Shown: positions 290-39,955 of the stretch, in pieces
Position numbering within the stretch: position 1 is the first letter of the stretch
Layout of the letters: each line of letters opens with the position of its first letter
DNA from: a virus
DNA: 39,955 nt
Reading direction: 5' to 3' (one strand)
IMG/VR virus record: IMGVR_UViG_3300046740_000049
Span: 1 to 39,955 of that record
Made by a program: the position numbers and the translations under genes
The notes under the pieces: generated by a model
Told to the model about the DNA's origin: nothing
What the model saw: only the letters and a program-made list of their open reading frames with translations
Database searches by the model: none

Positions 290-2647
290 ATGCCTAGCCA
301 ACAGCAAGAGAATCCTAGCACAGACCAACATGAATTCCTCTCCACACTAGCATCAGGGCTTCCAGCCGGAAGCTACTTCCACCTCGCCAGGGCGATCCCG
401 AAGACCGACGGCAACACGGCCTGGGAGAACGACACATGGCGCGAGCAGCACCTGGACGGGCATTGGTACTTCTGCACCGGAGCCAGCAGCGACAGCAAGC
501 ACCGCCGAGCCGAGGACATGGTCGCCGTCCTCGCCATCGTCCTGGACGACGTCAAGCCTGACGGCACTGGCAAGGGCGGCGGCGTGGTCGAGGTCGAGCC
601 GACGTGGAAGTTGGAGACGAGCCCAGGCAACGAGCAGTGGGGCTATATGCTGAAGGTAGCGGAGCCCGACATCGGGAAGGCCGACGCCCTGATGGTGTCC
701 CTCATCGAGGCCGGGCTGCAGGACCCAGGCGTCAACCGCTCCTGCCGCGTCTGGCGCGTACCCGGCAGCATCAACCAGAAGCCCCAGCACGCGGGCTTTA
801 AAGCCGTACTTCGCGACGTCGAGTGGGGCCGGACGTTCACCCTCAACAGCCTAGCCAAGGCGTTCAAGGTCCGCCCTGGCGCGCCCATCGAGCCCCGCGT
901 ACCCAGCGGCGAGCGGCCTGGGGCCGGCAAGCCGGACCCGTTCCTGGACTGGATGGCCGAGCAGGGCATGCTGACCGGCGAGCGCAGCAGCGAGTGGTTG
1001 GTGGTCGCATGCCCCTTCTCCGACGAGCATACGGACCCCAGGGCTACTGCGAAGTACCTGCCGACGTTCGCCAGCGAGGACGGCAGGCCACGCATCGAGT
1101 GCTGGCACACGCACGGCCGCCTTGACAAGGCGGCCTTTGCCAAGCGGTTCTTCGCCTGGGCCGCCGAGCAGGGTGCGCCGCCACCCTCCGGCCCCGACCC
1201 GGAGAAGCTGCGCGAGATGTTCGCCGCCATCCGCACCGGACCCTACGAGCCGCAGGCAAAGCGCGGCGAGCCAGTGCCGCTGCAGCCTGGAGCCACATAC
1301 GACGAGATCACGCTAGACGATGCCTTTGGCAAGATTCCTATCAGTGCCCTGCACGACATCAAGTACACCAAGGGATCGAAAGCTGTGCCCCCGGCCCCCG
1401 CCGCCAAGCAGGACACCAGCAACGCCAACGTACTGGCCTGTATGCGGCACCTGGGCGTCGAGTCCCGGCTCAACCTGATGAACGGCGAAACCGCATTCCT
1501 TCTACCCGAGCGCATCGACCCTGCCGGCTTTGGCTCGATGTCTGCCTACCAGATCGACAGCATGGTTCACGGCGCGGTGCGCGATGCCCTCCACCGTGTC
1601 GGGCTCAACAAGGCAGAGATTGACGACAACATGACCGGGATTGCCGAACGCAACTGCTGGCACCCTGCCAAGGACTGGATCGAGTCCAAACCCTGGGACG
1701 GCCAGGACCGCCTGGAGCATCTCCTGCGGTCGGTCGAGACGCCAACCCCCGACCTCTTCAAGGCGTATTTTCGTCGCTGGGCATTACAAACCGTGGAAGC
1801 AGCCTGCGGCTGGGCCGCCTCCCCACCTCGGCGCGAGCAGGAGAAGGCACTGTGCCTTGTCCTGGCCGGCAACCAGGGCATCGGCAAGACCCGGTGGTTG
1901 ATGTCGCTAGCACCTGAAGGGTTCACTGTGCGCGGCAAGCACCTCAACTTGGACGGCAGCGCATCGGCGGCGCGTGACTCGATCCACGAGGCACTGCAGG
2001 GCTGGATCGTGGAGCTTGGCGAGCTTGACACCACCTTCGGCAAGTCCGCCAACGGCAGCCTGAAGGCGTTCCTGTCCAACACCACCGACCAGTACCGGCT
2101 GCCCTACGCTGAAGCCTGGGGACGACGGCCGCGCTGCACGAGCTTCTGCGCCAGCGTCAACGACGCCCAGTTCCTGAAGGACGACACCGGCAGTCGCCGC
2201 TACATAGTGATCTGGACCGATCACTGCGACGTCGATCACGCGACGGACATGCAGCAGTTGTGGGCTCAGATGCATACCTACTGGAAGGGTGGCGAACAAA
2301 CCTACCTGACGAAGGCCGAGGAGCGGATGCAGGCCGAGGGCAATGCACGGCATCAGGCCGAGGACCCTGTCGCCGATGCCGCCGCCAACTTCGCCGAGAA
2401 GCGTGCCGAGCGCAGCGACCGTCACCCCTTCGAGTGCAGCGTGAAGGCGACCGACGTGCTGCAGATGCTGAACCTGCGCATGGACCTGGGCGGGACGTCG
2501 AAGCGGGTAGGGGCAGGACTGCGGTTGGTGCTGGGCAAGCCTCAGCAGTTGGACAAGCGTGGCGGCCACAAGCTGGGCTGGCGGCTCTGGCTGGACAAGG
2601 ACGAGGTCAAGGTCTACGGCAAGATGCTGCGCCCGAGCAAGGCGTGA
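290..2647 (+). CDS. Primase-helicase: N-terminal PrimPol-like domain plus VapE (D5-type) ATPase
   Basis: 785 residues. The N-terminal part (about 30-190) resembles RepB/AEP-type primases: paired acidic residues D86-D87 (VLDD), a SPGN turn near 110, and a basic strand ending in PGSIN near 160. A middle segment has a spaced Cys/His set (ACPFSDEH, ECWHTH) that may bind zinc. The C-terminal half is a VapE/virulence-associated E type SF3-like helicase: Walker A GNQGIGKT at 527-534, Walker B-like WIVELGELD at 572-580, and a VNDAQFLKDDTGSRR sensor/arginine segment. It probably primes and unwinds at the phage origin. The start has AGGAAA seven bases upstream. An in-frame CTTTAAAG lies at codons 169-172. 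The stop overlaps the next gene's GTG. Confidence 0.88.
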   Translation: MPSQQQENPSTDQHEFLSTLASGLPAGSYFHLARAIPKTDGNTAWENDTWREQHLDGHWYFCTGASSDSKHRRAEDMVAVLAIVLDDVKPDGTGKGGGVVEVEPTWKLETSPGNEQWGYMLKVAEPDIGKADALMVSLIEAGLQDPGVNRSCRVWRVPGSINQKPQHAGFKAVLRDVEWGRTFTLNSLAKAFKVRPGAPIEPRVPSGERPGAGKPDPFLDWMAEQGMLTGERSSEWLVVACPFSDEHTDPRATAKYLPTFASEDGRPRIECWHTHGRLDKAAFAKRFFAWAAEQGAPPPSGPDPEKLREMFAAIRTGPYEPQAKRGEPVPLQPGATYDEITLDDAFGKIPISALHDIKYTKGSKAVPPAPAAKQDTSNANVLACMRHLGVESRLNLMNGETAFLLPERIDPAGFGSMSAYQIDSMVHGAVRDALHRVGLNKAEIDDNMTGIAERNCWHPAKDWIESKPWDGQDRLEHLLRSVETPTPDLFKAYFRRWALQTVEAACGWAASPPRREQEKALCLVLAGNQGIGKTRWLMSLAPEGFTVRGKHLNLDGSASAARDSIHEALQGWIVELGELDTTFGKSANGSLKAFLSNTTDQYRLPYAEAWGRRPRCTSFCASVNDAQFLKDDTGSRRYIVIWTDHCDVDHATDMQQLWAQMHTYWKGGEQTYLTKAEERMQAEGNARHQAEDPVADAAANFAEKRAERSDRHPFECSVKATDVLQMLNLRMDLGGTSKRVGAGLRLVLGKPQQLDKRGGHKLGWRLWLDKDEVKVYGKMLRPSKA
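796..803. promoter_or_regulatory. CTTTAAAG palindrome 1
   Basis: Inside the primase-helicase gene as Gly-Phe-Lys-Ala (GGC TTT AAA GCC), extended to a 12-bp palindrome. It uses TTT and AAA where neighbouring codons are mostly TTC and AAG. Confidence 0.6.
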
Positions 2648-4705: not shown

Positions 4706-4915
4706 ATGCCTGTAGCTTCGTACACCATCACGTTCGACTTTGACGAGATGAACCTTGTCTTCCAGGCACTGGGCAAGCTGCCGGCTGAACGCAGCTTCAT
4801 GCTGATCCAGCGTCTGGGTGCCGAGGTCGCCGAAGCCAACAAGGCCGCCGCTATCATTCCGCCAGCCCCACCGAAGGCAGAAGTGCCCGACGTGGATTCG
4901 GCCTCCCTGCAGTAA
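4706..4915 (+). CDS. Small hypothetical protein
   Basis: 69 residues, starting one base after the HTH stop. It has a short beta-rich start (SYTITFDFDE), an amphipathic helix around 20-48 and a Pro/Ala-rich C-terminal tail. It is probably translated with the HTH gene. I do not recognise the family; the even charge and lack of membrane segments suggest a small cytoplasmic protein. Confidence 0.65.
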   Translation: MPVASYTITFDFDEMNLVFQALGKLPAERSFMLIQRLGAEVAEANKAAAIIPPAPPKAEVPDVDSASLQ

Positions 4916-4921
4916 GGTCAG

Positions 4922-4944
4922 CCCAGGCACCTTTAAAGCCTGGG
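4922..4944 (+). terminator. Hairpin with CTTTAAAG in its loop, upstream of PEP-CTERM gene
   Basis: CCCAGGC (4922-4928) pairs with GCCTGGG (4938-4944), leaving a 9-base loop that holds most of a CTTTAAAG site (4931-4938). No T tract follows. It sits seven bases after the preceding stop and six before the AGGAGA ribosome site, so it may attenuate or regulate the PEP-CTERM gene. Confidence 0.45.
4931..4938. promoter_or_regulatory. CTTTAAAG palindrome 2
   Basis: Intergenic, 26 bases before the ATG of the PEP-CTERM gene, in the loop of the 4922-4944 hairpin. Confidence 0.6.
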
Positions 4945-4964
4945 TAATTCAGGAGAACCACGCC

Positions 4965-5786
4965 ATGAAGAAACTTCTCTTTGCCGCCCTCGGGGCGGCC
5001 GCGCTGCTCGCGCTAGGGTCTGCCCAGGCCGCCAGCACCTGCTCGCTGCTGTCCAAGGACGGCACCTGCACGTTCGTCACCGACACCACGGGCGGGCAGG
5101 CACTCTTCACCAACCCGACCAACCTGGAGAACATCGGGTCCGGTGAGATCAACCCGTTCCTGGGGCTGCAGAACAACGGCACCGAGTTTGGCGTCAACAG
5201 CGACCTTGCCAACGTGAACCTGCTGCCGCTGAACGACAAGCGGGACAACCTCGGCACGTTCACCAACACGTTCACCCGCAACGACCTTGCGGTGATCGAC
5301 ATCAACGGGACGTCGTTCTACCAGTTCCTGCTCGATGCCCACGAGCCGGGCGGCACGCCGCTGGTGTCCATCGATACGCTGCGGATCTGGGACGCGAAGT
5401 CGGCGGCCCAGCAGTTGCTGTCCAACAGCAACGTGACCTCGCTGGCGGACGTGGACGGTCTGTTCTCCTCGCTCATCTACTCGATGGGTCCGGGCAACGA
5501 ACTGATCATGGACGGCACCCTGTTCCCTGGCAACGGCCTGGGCTATGACCTGTCGGTCTTCATCCCGACCAGTGCGTTCGCTGGGGTGGCAATGGACAGC
5601 CGGCTGATCTTCGGCACCGGCATGGGCGGCGTCCTGGATGCGGAAGCCGGCGACGGCTTCGAGGAGTGGGGCTACCGTGCGGCTGTAACGGCTGCAGTGC
5701 CTGAGCCCGGCACCTACGCCATGATGCTGGCCGGCATCGCAGTCGTCGGCGGCATCGTCCGCCGCCGCCGCCAGACGCCCGAGTAA
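4965..5786 (+). CDS. PEP-CTERM sorting-domain surface protein
   Basis: 273 residues with AGGAGA eight bases before the ATG. A Sec signal peptide covers residues 1-22 (KK start, hydrophobic core, AQA cleavage site). The mature part (23-244) is beta-rich with many Asn, Gly, Thr and Asp and two cysteines just after the signal. The C-terminus is a full PEP-CTERM tripartite signal: VPEPGTYAMM from 245, a hydrophobic segment to 265, then RRRR (266-269). In known systems a host exosortase recognises this tail and sends the protein to the cell surface or exopolysaccharide matrix. The phage carries no exosortase, so it would rely on the host. It is probably an accessory cargo (moron) gene that alters the infected cell's surface; the function is not known. 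Confidence 0.88.
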   Translation: MKKLLFAALGAAALLALGSAQAASTCSLLSKDGTCTFVTDTTGGQALFTNPTNLENIGSGEINPFLGLQNNGTEFGVNSDLANVNLLPLNDKRDNLGTFTNTFTRNDLAVIDINGTSFYQFLLDAHEPGGTPLVSIDTLRIWDAKSAAQQLLSNSNVTSLADVDGLFSSLIYSMGPGNELIMDGTLFPGNGLGYDLSVFIPTSAFAGVAMDSRLIFGTGMGGVLDAEAGDGFEEWGYRAAVTAAVPEPGTYAMMLAGIAVVGGIVRRRRQTPE

Positions 5787-28921: not shown

Positions 28922-29118
28922 ATGTGCCTCCAGCGTGCCATCGGGAGGTCGATGCCGCCGAACAGGATGCCGATCAGCACCAGCACGAAGATCAGGGCGA
29001 TGATCGCCCGCGCCACCATGCCGAAGGGCGGCGGCAGCGGGACCAGCGCGGTGAACACGTACCAGAGGATGCCGAAGACCAGCACCAGGATCAGCAGCGT
29101 GACGAGCATCTCGATCAT
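28918..29118 (-). CDS. Two-span membrane protein, putative holin
   Basis: 66 residues with two hydrophobic segments: MLVTLLILVLVFGILWYVF (4-22) and MVARAIIALIFVLVLIGILF (34-53), joined by a short proline-rich loop (VPLPPPFG). Size and topology fit a class II-type holin or the small Thivi_2564-like phage membrane proteins. Its first span is nearly the same as that of the 34-residue gene just upstream. Lysis function is an inference from topology and neighbours. Confidence 0.65.
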   Translation of the reverse strand: MIEMLVTLLILVLVFGILWYVFTALVPLPPPFGMVARAIIALIFVLVLIGILFGGIDLPMARWRHM

Positions 29119-29121
29119 GGT

Positions 29122-29226
29122 CTAGTCCTCCTTCGTCGTGAGCCAGGGCCGGCAGCGTGCGGTCAGCCATTCGAGCGCGCCGAAGACCAGCACCAGCACC
29201 AGCAGCGTGATGAGCATCGCGATCAT
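29122..29226 (-). CDS. 34-residue single-span membrane peptide, paralogue of the putative holin
   Basis: The start at 29226 has an ideal GGAGGT five bases upstream; the longer upstream frame has none. The sequence is MIAMLITLLVLVLVFGALEW followed by LTARCRPWLTTKED. The first 20 residues match the start of the 66-residue protein downstream at 14 or more positions, so this is a partial tandem duplicate. It has one membrane span and a short soluble tail. It may act as an inhibitor or partner of the holin-like protein. Confidence 0.65.
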   Translation of the reverse strand: MIAMLITLLVLVLVFGALEWLTARCRPWLTTKED

Positions 29227-29240
29227 GATGTACCTCCAGG

Positions 29241-29960
29241 TTACGCCTCGCCGATCCACATGCCTGGGCTCGCCTCGGGCAGCACATCGTAAGCCTCGCG
29301 GCCGAGGACGTCGGGCGGCTGCTCGTGCCACGCATCGCGTGGGATGTCCTCACGCCGCAGGCCGACGCGCCGCATCGCCTGCGACGTCGGCGCAGCGTAC
29401 CGCAGCACCTCGCCGAAGCGGTGCGAGGCGTCGCACACGTCCAGCACGATCACGCGGCCGCCGGGTGCGAGTGCCTTGCGCGCTGCCTTCATCGCCGCCG
29501 ACAGCCGCACATGGCCCAGCACGTAGGCAAGCACCACGAGCATGGCGCGCTCGCGTGGCCGCATGCGGAAGTCGCACAGGTCGCCCAGCCACCGCTCGCC
29601 GTGACACACGCACAGGTCAAGCTGCGCCTTGCTCTGGTTCACCAGGGTGAACCGCAGGTCGGGCCGCAGCATCTGCCAGTAGAACTCCATCCCGCCGACG
29701 CCGCAGCCCAGGCTCACGATGCGTGCGCCCTGGTGCAGGAAGCTGTTGGGCCGGATGGACCGGCGCAGCACCTCGGTGCTGTGCAGCCGCTGGTCCGGCG
29801 AGAGCATGAACAGTTGCAGCACGATGCGCCGCTGGTCCATGAGCCAGCGTGTGACCTCGCCGACCAGCAGGTCGTCAGCGTAGAAGTCGTGAGTCTTTAA
29901 AGCCCCAGTCGCGCACCTACCAGTAACGCAATGCTCGGCTGCCAGGGTCGAGGCGATCAC
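29241..29960 (-). CDS. SAM-dependent methyltransferase
   Basis: 239 residues from a GTG that overlaps the small terminase stop (GTGA). A Rossmann-type class I methyltransferase: motif I IVSLGCGVGG at 81-90, motif II region RFTLVNQSKAQLDL, and a motif IV/V region MLVVLAYVLGHV followed by GGRVIVLDVCDA. No target-recognition domain or DPPY-type DNA adenine motif is present, so a small-molecule, protein or RNA substrate is as likely as DNA. Copy e of the 21-bp element and an in-frame CTTTAAAG lie in its first 25 codons. Its position inside the packaging operon is unusual. Confidence 0.78.
   Translation of the reverse strand: MIASTLAAEHCVTGRCATGALKTHDFYADDLLVGEVTRWLMDQRRIVLQLFMLSPDQRLHSTEVLRRSIRPNSFLHQGARIVSLGCGVGGMEFYWQMLRPDLRFTLVNQSKAQLDLCVCHGERWLGDLCDFRMRPRERAMLVVLAYVLGHVRLSAAMKAARKALAPGGRVIVLDVCDASHRFGEVLRYAAPTSQAMRRVGLRREDIPRDAWHEQPPDVLGREAYDVLPEASPGMWIGEA
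29895..29902. promoter_or_regulatory. CTTTAAAG palindrome 12
   Basis: In codons 20-22 of the methyltransferase gene, minus-strand Ala-Leu-Lys with TTA; 12 bases from copy e of the 21-bp element. Confidence 0.6.
29914..29934 (-). repeat. ATTTCGTTAC-type element, copy e
   Basis: Minus-strand core GCATTGCGTTACTGGTAG inside the 5' end of the methyltransferase gene, in the direction of transcription. Confidence 0.55.
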
Positions 29961-30319
29961 TGCTCTTCCCGGATGATCACCGTCAGCGGGCCGCCGCCAT
30001 CGCCTGCGATCTCGCTGCGGTTGAGCTTGGGAGCAGCGTACTCGGCCAGCATGGCGACCGTCCTGGCCGCTCCTGCCGGGTCAGGCGGCCGCCCGGCACG
30101 CACGAGCTTGCCGTCCGCATCGCGCACGTCTGGCGAGCCCTCGGCGATCTCACGCACCCACTTGGCATAGTTCTTCTCATTGCTCTCAAGCAGCCGGGTG
30201 ATGGTCTCGCGGAAGGTCGTGGTCACCTTGTTGGGCACGCCCGGTTTCCTGCCGCCGCGTTTCTTTAAAGGCGCAGTTCCAGACGGGGCTACTTTTCCGC
30301 TCGGGTCAGGGGTTGACAT
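29957..30319 (-). CDS. terS: Putative terminase small subunit
   Basis: 120 residues from ATG at 30319. A Pro/Ser start with a basic stretch (LKKRGGRKPGVPNKV) leads into a helical middle (FRETITRLLESNEKNYAKWVREIAEG) and a helix AARTVAMLAEYAAPKLNR, with a beta/disordered end (GGPLTVIIREEQ). The KPGVPNK-type basic start followed by helices is common in phage small terminases and in this position, first gene of the packaging block, it probably recognises packaging DNA. No strong Shine-Dalgarno is seen. CTTTAAAG lies in codons 18-20. Confidence 0.65.
   Translation of the reverse strand: MSTPDPSGKVAPSGTAPLKKRGGRKPGVPNKVTTTFRETITRLLESNEKNYAKWVREIAEGSPDVRDADGKLVRAGRPPDPAGAARTVAMLAEYAAPKLNRSEIAGDGGGPLTVIIREEQ
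30263..30270. promoter_or_regulatory. CTTTAAAG palindrome 13
   Basis: In codons 18-20 of the small terminase gene, minus-strand Pro-Leu-Lys (CCT TTA AAG) with TTA. Confidence 0.6.
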
Positions 30320-30399
30320 GGCGCGAAATGTACACCCCAAACGCCGATTCGGGGCCATTTTCAGCCAGCACCACCCATCTAGCACTGGTGCCAAAAACC

Positions 30400-30434
30400 C
30401 CCTCTACGCCCGGTAGCACCACTCAGCACCAGTC
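30400..30434. repeat. Inverted repeat, left arm (35 bp)
   Basis: Reverse complement of 30535-30569 with 33 of 35 matches, including 22 in a row (30400-30421). On the minus strand it starts with two 10-bp units (GACTGGTGCT, GAGTGGTGCT). The arms are 100 bp apart. Confidence 0.85.
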
Positions 30435-30534
30435 TAAATTCCTTGGCAGTTCTGCAATAAATAACACCGCCGCCTGTCCGCCGCCTGCAAGGGGGTCCGC
30501 TCTCCTATCGTCTCTCGCATAACTAAGAATAATT

Positions 30535-30569
30535 GACTAGTGCTGACTGGTGCTACCGGGCGTAGAGGG
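30535..30569. repeat. Inverted repeat, right arm (35 bp)
   Basis: Partner of 30400-30434. It begins with two abutting 10-bp units, GACTAGTGCT and GACTGGTGCT, followed by ACCGGGCGTAGAGGG. Confidence 0.85.
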
Positions 30570-30578
30570 CCAAATCGT

Positions 30579-30620
30579 CACTAGTGCTGCTGACTGGTGC
30601 TGACTGGTGCTGAGTAGTGC
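30579..30620. repeat. Phased 10-bp direct repeats
   Basis: CACTAGTGCT at 30579, then TGACTGGTGC at 30591 and 30601 and TGAGTAGTGC at 30611, spaced exactly ten bases, one helical turn. Together with the right arm there are six units here, and about four inverted ones lie at 30366-30434. Confidence 0.8.
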
Positions 30621-30717
30621 CAACAAAATCACGCATCCGCAAAATAAAGTAAGCCTGGGTCTCAAATCTCTGTAGAATTCAGGCTTGACAGCCACCAACC
30701 AAACGGAGTTTGAAGAC

Positions 30718-31104
30718 ATGAAGAACATCAGCCAAGCAGCGTTCGTCGGCCCGATGCCCGAACTGTGCGGCCCGGTCAAGCCTGCGGCCAAGCGTGGCCG
30801 CCCGGCCAAGTACGCGAGCGAGGCCGAGCGTCAGAAGGCGTGGCGTGCCAACAATGCCGTGAAGACCCTGCGCATCGACGGCAAGGCCGCCGCCACCATC
30901 GCCAAGCTGGCCGAGATGTACGACTGCGACGAGACCCACGTCGTGAACAACCTGCTGCGCTTCGCCCTGGCGAACCGCAACTGGGTGCAGGCCGGTGTCG
31001 GCGGCTGGGCCATCAAGGATGCCCGTTTCACCGCCGGCAAGCGCACCGCCCCGACCGAGCCCGACCTGTCCGCCCTGGACGCCGAGTTTCCCCTTGTCAA
31101 GTAA
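30718..31104 (+). CDS. AT-hook plus ribbon-helix-helix DNA-binding protein
   Basis: 128 residues from ATG at 30718 with CGGAG upstream. Residues 25-31 are an AT-hook (KRGRPAK), which inserts in the minor groove of AT tracts. A charged linker (SEAERQKAWRANN) leads to a ribbon-helix-helix fold: strand VKTLRIDG (48-55), helix AATIAKLAEMYDC, helix ETHVVNNLLRFALAN (72-86). The rest is flexible. It is the first gene right of the divergent control region, ideal for an autoregulated master regulator. RHH proteins bind short palindromes or arrays as dimers, so both the 10-bp repeats and the CTTTAAAG palindromes are candidate targets. That link is inferred. Confidence 0.78.
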   Translation: MKNISQAAFVGPMPELCGPVKPAAKRGRPAKYASEAERQKAWRANNAVKTLRIDGKAAATIAKLAEMYDCDETHVVNNLLRFALANRNWVQAGVGGWAIKDARFTAGKRTAPTEPDLSALDAEFPLVK

Positions 31105-31111
31105 CCTGGAG

Positions 31112-31119
31112 CTTTAAAG
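31112..31119. promoter_or_regulatory. CTTTAAAG palindrome 14
   Basis: Between the GGAG ribosome site (31107-31110) and the ATG at 31121, so bound protein or structure here would block initiation. Confidence 0.65.
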
Positions 31120-31120
31120 C

Positions 31121-31453
31121 ATGAAGACCCTGCAAGTGTTCCACGCCGGCCTGCTGGTCGGCACCCGCAAGACCGAGAACGCCTACACCCACGCCCTGGT
31201 GGCGCACTCCTTCCGGGCGGCCGACTACGCCGCCAAGTGGAGCAAGGCCGGCTACGACGCCAGCTTCATCGCCAGGGTGGCAATCAAGCGTGCCACGCCC
31301 TGGGTGGTGTCGTTCCACTCGTCCCTGGACCTCGCACGCAAGGCTGCCGGCGGCACTCGCCTGGACTGGCTGTGCTGCTCCATCTCCATCGAGCCGGTGG
31401 TCGAGAAGGACGTCAAGCTGCGCGCCAGGGCCGTCCGCAGCAGCGTCGGCTGA
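31121..31453 (+). CDS. Hypothetical early protein
   Basis: 110 residues. It starts with a strand (KTLQVFHAGLLVG), then a helix AADYAAKWSKAGYDASFIARVAI, and a beta part WVVSFHSSLDLARKAAG. It is basic with two adjacent cysteines (LCCSISIE). It has GGAG ten bases upstream with the CTTTAAAG palindrome in between. Probably cotranscribed with the RHH gene. No family recognised. Confidence 0.65.
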   Translation: MKTLQVFHAGLLVGTRKTENAYTHALVAHSFRAADYAAKWSKAGYDASFIARVAIKRATPWVVSFHSSLDLARKAAGGTRLDWLCCSISIEPVVEKDVKLRARAVRSSVG

Positions 31454-37805: not shown

Positions 37806-38003
37806 ATGCCCAAGCCTATCGAATTCGACGAGATCGACCTCCTCGCCCAGCGTCTCGTGATCGCTGCCGTCTCAGGCTACTGCGCCGATACAGAGGATGG
37901 CGGGTTCCCCGGTGACGAGTACGGAGTCGCCAGCGCAGTCATCGCCAGGGCGTATCACCTCGCCAGTCTGCTCGTGGTTGCTGCCCAGAGTCGCCGCTCG
38001 TGA
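37806..38003 (+). CDS. Small hypothetical protein coupled to DNA polymerase
   Basis: 65 residues from ATG at 37806 with GGAA upstream. It starts acidic (PIEFDEIDLLAQRLVIAAV) and ends in a helix VIARAYHLASLLVVAAQSRR. Its TGA overlaps the polymerase GTG, so ribosomes translating it probably deliver the polymerase start. Only the 21-bp element (copy i) and no consensus promoter lies between the terminator and this gene. Confidence 0.65.
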   Translation: MPKPIEFDEIDLLAQRLVIAAVSGYCADTEDGGFPGDEYGVASAVIARAYHLASLLVVAAQSRRS

Positions 38004-39955
38004 AAGCCCGCCGCCTGCACCTGGACTACGAGACCCGCTCCGACTGCGACCTGAAGTCGGCCGGCGCGTACGTCTACGCCCGCCACCCCTCGACCAGGGT
38101 CCTGTGCGCGGCGTACGCCCTGGACCACAGTCCAGTGCGCTACTGGGCGGCGGCCGCCGGCTACCCGATGCCGGCGAGCCTGGAGCGCGCCCTCCAGGAC
38201 CCGGACGTCGAGGTCCACGCCTGGAATGCCCAGTTCGAGCGGCTGATCACCCGGAACGTCGTCGGCATCCCCGTGGATCGCCGCCGCTACCACTGCACGG
38301 CCGCCCTGGCGCGAGCCCGAGGGCTGCCCGGCAAGCTGGAGACCGCGCTCGACTTCCTGGACATGGCACCCGATCTCGCGGTGAAGCGCAAGGGCACCGC
38401 GCTGATGATGAAGTGGTGCAAGCCGCTGCCGACCGGCGGCTACGCCAGCGACCCGGACGAGTACGGAGACCTGATCTCCTATTGCATCGGCGACGTGAAG
38501 AGCGAGCGCGACATCGCCGCCCGGCTCTACCCGCTGACGAGGATCGAGCAGGCCGAGTACCTGCTGACCGAGGTCATCAACGACCGTGGGCTGCCCATCG
38601 ACGTGCAGCTTGCGCTGGCGGCGCAGACCTACGGAGACGAGGAGAAGCGCGAGCTTGCCGCCTACCTGGGGTGGATGACCGGCGGCACGATCACGACGCC
38701 CAACCAGCACGCCCGCATCAAGGAGTGGCTGAAGGCTCGCCTGGGAGACAAGATCTTTAAAGCCTTCTTCGCCAAGGGCGACAAGGAGTCCACCGACAAG
38801 AACGCCAGGGCGGGGTTCCTGGGCTCGGAGTGCGCGAAGGACTGCGACCCCGAGATTGTCGAGTTGATCGAGGTGGTGGACGACGCCGGCAAGTCCAGCG
38901 TGGCGAAGTTCGCCCGCATGGCCGAGCGTGCGTCCGACAACGGCCGGGCCGAGGGCTCCTACATCTGCTACGGGGCAGCGCAGACCAAGCGGTACAGCAG
39001 CCGGGGCGTGCAGGTCCACAACCTCCTGCGCAAGGGTCCGCCGGACCTCCAGGCCGCCATCAGTCAGGTCCTGGCGCACAACGTCCAGGGCAAGGTCATG
39101 CACGTCCTGGCGAGCCTGCTGCGCCCGACCATCAAGGCATCCCCCGGCAAGGTCCTGGTCTGGGGCGACTGGGCCGCTGTCGAGGCTCGCGGCATGCCCT
39201 GGCTGGCCGGCTGCCAGTGGAAGCTGGACATGTACCGGCAGGGCATCGACGTCTACCGGGTGAACGCCGAGACCATCTTCGGCGTGCCGGCGGCCGACGC
39301 CGACGATCTCCAGCGGCAGATCGGCAAGGTGGCCGAGTTGTCCCTGCAATTCGGCGGCGCGAAGGGTGCGCTGAAGTCGATGGCCCGCCAGTACGGGATC
39401 ATCCTGCCCCCTGGCCTGGACGCCGACATCGTCTTCGCCTGGAGGGAGGCCAACAAGTGGGCGGCCAAGTACAGCAACAGCCTGTACCACGACTTCCTGA
39501 TGACGTGCATGGGCGAAGACTCGGGCTTCTACCGGCAGATCATCCCGATGCTGCCCGGCACCGTCAGCGTGGCCTGCGACCTGCCCGGCGGCACCACCCT
39601 GTACTACCACGGTGTCCGGGGTCACGTCGCCATCACCCACCCGACGATCCGCCGCACCGTCATGCTGGAGGTCGGTGCTGGAGACACAGGCTGGGACGGC
39701 GAGAACCTCAACGACTGGGAAACCGAAGTCACGTTCACCAAGACGCTGCCGGCGGGCTTTCGCACCGAGCGGGTATGGCACGGCCTGTTCGCCGAGAACA
39801 CCACGCAAGGGCAGTGCGCCGCCCTGCTGCGCGACTGTGTCGCTCGTGTCGAAGTGTCATTGACCGGGGATGCCAGAGTGATCGGTCACACCCACGACGA
39901 GATCATCCTGGAGTGCGATGAATCGATTGCCGGGAAGGCAGCAGAGGTACTGAAG
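38000..39955 (+). CDS. Family A DNA polymerase with 3'-5' exonuclease (main part; continues at 1-207)
   Basis: Replicative phage DNA polymerase. Joined across the contig ends it is 679 residues: 611 from here up to 39832, then 68 from 1-207. The exonuclease domain shows ExoI D9/E11 (LDYET), ExoII N76/E80 (WNAQFE) and ExoIII Y161/D165. The polymerase domain shows motif A at D390-R397 (GDWAAVEAR), motif B at R439/K443/F451-G452 and motif C HDE at 632-634. There is no 5' nuclease domain, as in other phage PolA proteins. The GTG start at 38000 overlaps the TGA of the preceding small gene by four bases, so translation is probably coupled. A CTTTAAAG site (38755-38762) lies in frame as Ile-Phe-Lys-Ala. 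It belongs to the replication run DUF2800 nuclease, putative SSB, polymerase, primase-helicase. Confidence 0.93.
   Translation, partial: MKARRLHLDYETRSDCDLKSAGAYVYARHPSTRVLCAAYALDHSPVRYWAAAAGYPMPASLERALQDPDVEVHAWNAQFERLITRNVVGIPVDRRRYHCTAALARARGLPGKLETALDFLDMAPDLAVKRKGTALMMKWCKPLPTGGYASDPDEYGDLISYCIGDVKSERDIAARLYPLTRIEQAEYLLTEVINDRGLPIDVQLALAAQTYGDEEKRELAAYLGWMTGGTITTPNQHARIKEWLKARLGDKIFKAFFAKGDKESTDKNARAGFLGSECAKDCDPEIVELIEVVDDAGKSSVAKFARMAERASDNGRAEGSYICYGAAQTKRYSSRGVQVHNLLRKGPPDLQAAISQVLAHNVQGKVMHVLASLLRPTIKASPGKVLVWGDWAAVEARGMPWLAGCQWKLDMYRQGIDVYRVNAETIFGVPAADADDLQRQIGKVAELSLQFGGAKGALKSMARQYGIILPPGLDADIVFAWREANKWAAKYSNSLYHDFLMTCMGEDSGFYRQIIPMLPGTVSVACDLPGGTTLYYHGVRGHVAITHPTIRRTVMLEVGAGDTGWDGENLNDWETEVTFTKTLPAGFRTERVWHGLFAENTTQGQCAALLRDCVARVEVSLTGDARVIGHTHDEIILECDESIAGKAAEVLK
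38755..38762. promoter_or_regulatory. CTTTAAAG palindrome 17
   Basis: Inside the DNA polymerase gene, reading Ile-Phe-Lys-Ala (ATC TTT AAA GCC). Confidence 0.6.
39833..39955. repeat. Terminal direct repeat, right copy (with 1-123)
   Basis: These 123 bases equal 1-123 except T39860 against C28. Both copies are in the same polymerase reading frame. It marks the contig ends as overlapping ends of a circular map. Confidence 0.9.

Follow-up and report, generated by a model that had tools for sequence, protein, structure and literature searches.

The DNA analyzed here (the window) is a phage record of 39,955 bp that is complete or nearly complete, with ends that share ~123 bp. Leftward from position 30319, the gene for a 120-aa protein is followed by terminase, portal, capsid, and structural genes. 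Rightward from position 30718, the gene for an RHH-like protein is followed by small genes and by those for an exonuclease, an SSB-like protein, a DNA polymerase, a primase-helicase, and an SNF2 helicase. This arrangement agrees with a preliminary description of the DNA, in which the intergenic region was taken to be the hinge between virion and early transcription. Since the window carries its own terminase, portal, and major head protein genes, it represents a complete phage and not a SaPI/PICI satellite, which would have no capsid or terminase of its own. The features of interest are as follows.

29957 to 30319, minus strand: first leftward gene, encoding 120 aa; excluded as reader
30361 to 30624, no strand assigned: whole iteron array, putative replication origin (repeats and shuffles; conserved position in relatives; location between divergent gene blocks)
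30367 to 30434, minus strand: left iteron block, with TRGTGCY on the minus strand at 30367-30373, 30415-30421, and 30425-30431 and a plus-strand copy at 30386-30392
30404 to 30416, minus strand: left copy of the CTAC-N5-GTAG element, CTACGCCCGGTAG, kept in close relatives despite a changed iteron word
30435 to 30534, no strand assigned: central 100 bp, putative unwinding region
30535 to 30624, plus strand: right iteron block, with TRGTGCY at 30538, 30548, 30582, 30595, 30605, and 30615
30553 to 30565, plus strand: right copy of the CTAC-N5-GTAG element, CTACCGGGCGTAG, between iterons 2 and 3, kept in close relatives
30640 to 30690, plus strand: conserved stretch AAGCCTGGGTCTCAAATCTCTGTAGAATTCAGGCTTGACA, which sequence comparison shows to be kept among relatives whatever their array
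30718 to 31104, plus strand: first early gene, RHH-like protein of 128 aa; excluded as reader of the array
290 to 2647, plus strand: 785-aa AEP-primase/VapE-D5-type helicase, proposed initiator and reader (Pfam, fold match, covariation)
2429 to 2593, plus strand: predicted C-terminal winged-helix-like domain of the helicase, residues 714-768 (divergence and covariation)
2495 to 2533, plus strand: predicted recognition helix within that domain, residues 736-748

No family match was obtained for the first leftward protein; its gene perhaps encodes a small terminase subunit. The AAGCCTGGGTCTCAAATCTCTGTAGAATTCAGGCTTGACA stretch is probably the early promoter region. It contains no sigma-70 consensus match, and a scan for promoter and terminator consensus sequences gave nothing. 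GC skew turns near the array, at the same place as the coding-strand switch and with the reverse of the sign customary for bacteria, and so it decides nothing about an origin. No match was obtained in INPHARED with DNA (29900-31100, distant; 8000-30000, near) or with the RHH protein, and GTDB genomes searched with the SSB-like protein yielded no relative.

Three further observations concern the genome at large. At 31104-31121, between the RHH gene and the early gene that follows it, the window lacks an insert of 0.3 to 0.9 kb that is present at this place in L007, L014 to L017, and L021 to L023. The product of 4818-5786 has a PEP-CTERM sorting motif (TIGR02595; 26.2 bits, with a cutoff of 16), which is unusual in a phage and hints at a host with an exosortase. 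The DNA polymerase gene (38000-39916), which spans the record ends, resembled Pol I types and DpoZ, an aminoadenine-incorporating polymerase, weakly and far below the cutoff.

Inspection of the array confirmed a 35-bp inverted repeat (30400-30434 and 30535-30569) that encloses 100 bp and whose arms agree at 33 of 35 positions. In 200 dinucleotide-shuffled versions of the region, the top-scoring 35-mer inverted repeat had 26 matches, and the inverted similarity of the arms extends to 54 nt at 81%. Ten repeat units had been described, and we found the word TRGTGCY 10 times within 255 bp: on the minus strand at 30367, 30415, and 30425 and on the plus strand at 30386 and at six positions from 30538 to 30615. 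The entire 40 kb holds 33 copies on both strands, these included. The claim that the units are repeated in steps of exactly ten bases holds for three runs (30415/30425, 30538/30548, and 30595/30605/30615), that is, for 4 of the 9 intervals between copies. Since the other steps are of 13, 34, and so on, the sites do not all lie on one face of the helix, and the idea that a protein occupies a single face across the whole array is unsupported. The AT-rich tracts of the preliminary description are real but modest, with 50% A+T in the center compared with 34% for the genome. The AT-richest 30-mer of the whole phage genome (30519-30548; 70% A+T) lies between the blocks, at the left edge of the right block. 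A second array was sought elsewhere in the window and was not found; the only other TRGTGCY cluster, at 28976-29195, is coding sequence and disappears when a longer word is used. Each arm also contains one CTAC-N5-GTAG element, which occurs nowhere else in the window. Some relatives have CTATG-type sequences instead. In close relatives, the element is unchanged where the iterons differ, and it may be a site for a second, conserved protein; the RHH-like protein shows the same degree of conservation as the element.

Relatives were gathered by means of the RHH-like protein, giving 24 and later 44 viral contigs. An array was found at the same place in nearly all relatives that have the same helicase, and its repeat word differed among them:

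TRGTGCY: window, L006, L021, L026
TRGTYCY: L007
GCTGTYC: L013 to L016, L019, L023, L024
CTCATGC: L018, L025
GGTGTTC: L022, L125
GGGTAGCG: L109
GAGGTGTWC: L047
other words: L107, L118, L119

Absence of the repeats from close relatives, which had been named as an observation that would count against a functional array, was thus not what we saw; the arrays are present and the word is changed. The change affects all copies in an array together, while the flanking genes are almost constant. L023 and L025 are 99.5% identical in terminase, 97.5% in the first leftward protein, and 97.4% in the RHH protein; L023 has five copies of GCTGTYC and none of CTMATGC, and L025 has none and eight, respectively. 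The window and L007 (terminase, 99.1%; first leftward protein, 91.7%; RHH protein, 96.9%) have 10 copies of TRGTGCY and none of TRGTYCY and no copy and seven copies, respectively. Because the adjoining genes are nearly identical next to unrelated words, the reader of the array must be encoded elsewhere than beside it. Wholly different words occupy this position in close relatives, so that the putative start signal and the part of the protein that recognizes it seem to switch jointly.

The candidate reader is the primase-helicase, whose gene lies ~9.5 kb downstream of the array on the circularized map. Pfam analysis identified a VapE-like domain (3e-41). The SaPI PriRep1 structure (PDB 7pds) was matched both by sequence (4.8e-20) and by fold (4.6e-16), and the AEP domain matched S-2L PrimPol (6zp9) and RepB' (3h20). 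The AlphaFold model has a mean pLDDT of 72, with 80 to 91 in the C-terminal domain. PriRep1 with double-stranded DNA (7pds) ranked best by fold, followed by the NrS-1 and S-2L PrimPols, poxvirus D5/E5, and SCCmec Cch. Modeled alone, the C-terminal domain adopts a winged-helix-like fold (pLDDT 84), and its matches, mostly to winged-helix proteins, were weak (Foldseek, E > 0.1, none significant; VIA Z ≤ 4.3). The phage has two of the features of SaPI/P4-type iteron origins, namely, an initiator with an AEP primase domain and a D5/VapE-type AAA+ helicase, and a block of short iterons on either side of an AT-rich region. In SaPIs in the narrow sense, the origin lies directly downstream of rep, which is not so for the array at 30361-30624 and the helicase gene at 290-2647.

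Covariation was assessed by correlating word similarity with protein identity (Mantel test) in 11 genomes with both the array and the helicase on known contigs. One of the 11, the pair L024/L155, is presumptive, being joined on the grounds of same sample and complementary, abutting gene content with no overlap. Word similarity correlated best with the identity of the C-terminal domains of the helicases (r = 0.55 to 0.58; P = 0.0005 to 0.0025), and the partial correlation after removal of the mean of the other genes was 0.54 to 0.56. Without L006 and L024, the plain r fell to 0.26 to 0.28 (P ~0.08) and the partial r to 0.38 to 0.43 (P = 0.01 to 0.02). The winged-helix region ranked first or tied for first in every genome subset, although the helicase linker region correlated almost equally in some. 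For genes outside the helicase, the correlation was at most 0.32. Genomes with a near-identical recognition helix and wing share a word (the window and L006; L015 and probably L024/L155; L022 and L047 in part). Counting against a pairing of origin and reader, the window and L026 have the same word despite considerably different wHTH domains.

The C-terminal domain is a local hot spot of divergence. It is 35 to 50% identical between L017 and L026, and the window and L030 are 75% identical there compared with 96% over the helicase. The wHTH of L030 (3562-3924), of the RRV / REFIERGGH type, is clearly different from that of the window, and its array is not on the contig; the proposed pairing predicts that this array has a word different from TRGTGCY. 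A second divergence hot spot was noted at 900-1700 of the window (helicase residues ~300 to 440), in the primase-helicase linker, where the window and L006 are 38 to 62% identical, compared with 86% overall.

Array and helicase are also lost together. In G013 and G016, a PriCT_2+AAA_25 primase-helicase replaces the VapE-type helicase in the same slot between the polymerase and the SNF2 helicase, and the divergent region contains no such array, though it retains the RHH gene and has a promoter stretch of similar sequence. Other short inverted repeats, of the TGTCCT or TGTCAC type, were noted in PriCT_2+AAA_25 relatives (L168, 5936-7801; L169, 2844-4679; and upstream of the RHH gene in L110, L121, and L126) and are perhaps the origin of that initiator.

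Phages with unrelated backbones and AEP/VapE-D5 helicases (Acinetobacter phage Alexa, L049, L050, L103, and others) resemble the window in having inverted iteron blocks around an AT-rich center, yet with other words. They differ in the position of the array, which lies directly behind the helicase gene in Alexa, L049, L050, and L058 and 2 to 6 kb downstream of it in a second clade. In that clade, the partial correlation of wHTH and word was 0.37 to 0.40 (P ~0.02). Clusters in L057, L066, and L072 were rejected as coding or simple repeats. The words were as follows:

Acinetobacter phage Alexa: GTGCAACC
L049: GTGCAAAG
L050: GTGCGTTCG
second clade, among others: GTGGGCAAT, TTGGGCAAT, GTGGACAAT, TTGGGTCAT, ATGGGAAT, TTAGGCAAT

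The AT-rich centers of seven second-clade origins, unlike that of the window, each contain one dyad resembling a LexA/SOS box, CTGT-N8-ACAG (for example, TACTGTATAGGCGTACAGTA), at L078:15490, L103:16469, L106:15125, L086:14976, L089:15240, L051:15515, and L052:13940. Outside the arrays, only one other match occurs in 260 kb, and the motif suggests SOS control at these origins. Runs of G of the GGGGGGGAGGGCC type were seen near the outer edge of the arrays in L071, L077, L086, L093, and L070.

Several explanations of the array were weighed. The preliminary description had offered an operator array as one option, with the RHH-like protein or another early regulator binding the repeats to control the divergent promoters, unrelated to replication. 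The array does lie between divergent transcription units and adjoins a small putative DNA-binding protein. However, RHH proteins that are 97% identical stand beside unrelated words in both L023/L025 and window/L007, so this neighbor cannot be the reader; RHH identity has no predictive value for the word (Mantel r about -0.05), the gene is kept in genomes without the array, and distant helicase phages have their arrays directly behind the helicase gene. We therefore consider an operator very improbable. A pac site bound by a small terminase, should 29957-30319 encode one, is more improbable still. Pac sites can lie near small-terminase genes, and the gene adjoining the array precedes the region of the terminase large subunit, but the near-identity of this protein in L023 and L025, beside unrelated words, rules it out as reader; its partial r with the word is about 0.1, and in distant phages the array comes after the helicase gene and not after terminase.

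It is also unlikely that the array is the target of some other conflict (phase-variable or decoy repeats or a recombination hot spot), with the helicase link due just to shared ancestry. The sample is small and drawn from metagenome contigs, and whole arrays have apparently been exchanged in almost identical backgrounds (window/L007). Against this, the polymerase, exonuclease, SSB-like protein, and SNF2 helicase have the same ancestry and do not track the word, replacement was joint in G013 and G016, and the same arrangement recurs in unrelated backbones. A dual-purpose site, an origin where the divergent promoters are in addition controlled by the initiator or by another protein bound at CTAC-N5-GTAG, so that replication is coupled to the early/late switch, is a real but doubtful possibility. 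The site lies exactly between the two transcription units, and one such element per half is fixed in close relatives; the negative promoter scan, the CTATG-type replacements, and the location of the conserved promoter-like stretch outside the array argue against it.

We consider it probable that the array is the phage's replication origin, read by its own primase-helicase through the C-terminal domain, and that word and reader switch together. An iteron origin had been among the options of the preliminary description, and it is well supported, as the array occurs together with the primase-helicase, is missing where another protein has taken the syntenic position of this enzyme, and varies in sequence along with it. 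Multiple primase-helicase molecules would bind the iterons on both sides through the winged-helix domain and form rings on both inverted blocks. The rings would open the AT-rich center at the left edge of the right block, after which the helicase would unwind outwards and the N-terminal AEP domain would prime. Binding, melting, and bidirectional firing at the array are what we infer from these comparisons. Array and reading domain would change specificity together between relatives, probably by whole-cassette recombination.

The simplest account would be an iteron origin read by the phage primase-helicase as in SaPIs. The SaPI (PriRep1 and SaPI5 PriRep5) and SCCmec Cch2 systems likewise combine an AEP/D5-type primase-helicase or helicase, a C-terminal DNA-binding domain (here predicted), and short iterons. 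They differ in that the SaPI origin is directly downstream of rep, whereas the array of the window is in the phage divergent control region, and in that the Cch2 iterons are of 5 bp (AAGTG) and those of the window are of 7 to 10 bp. In P4, the alpha protein is primase and helicase in one and recognizes short repeats that lie far from its own gene. The proposed reader would be like alpha in both respects, although P4 has ori plus a separate crr and no second array was found in the window. In lambda-type origins, the iterons lie inside an O-type initiator gene and host DnaB is recruited through P; the array of the window lies between genes, and the phage has a helicase gene of its own. The C-terminal domains of SaPI Rep and SCCmec Cch2 have been reported to recognize origin iterons (PMC7581432), and the P4 primase-helicase is a fused protein (PMC7145576). 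In the Vibrio PLE, the initiator DNA-binding domain varies along with the origin iterons and the two are exchanged as modules, with the origin-directed nuclease Odn proposed as the selective force (PMC8263062). Word and initiator domain covary in the group of the window as well, but the PLE initiator is a RepA_N protein without helicase or primase, its DNA-binding domain is N-terminal, and its iterons are of ~30 bp. On the best reading, the array would work like the SaPI and P4 origins but displaced 9.5 kb from the initiator gene and with word switching between relatives.

These results provide a mapped and testable candidate origin and reader, neither of which was known before, for a group of uncultivated phages, and a rule for locating origins in other phages with this class of helicase. 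The words that occur naturally alongside nearly invariant helicases also form a set from which the choice of DNA by a winged-helix initiator could be learned. More tentatively, AEP-primase/VapE-D5 phages might as a class carry typed origins, in which word and initiator wHTH form a fast-switching lock and key, exchanged between near-identical phages as cassettes 9.5 kb apart and driven by conflict; candidate drivers in such a scheme would be origin-directed nucleases, parasitic satellites, and competition of coinfecting phages. Coupled switching of this kind has so far been shown for PLE satellites, with conflict as its proposed driver. The finding thus raises the question of why replication addresses change so fast, and whether these phages, like the PLE satellites, switch them to escape origin-directed attack or hijack.
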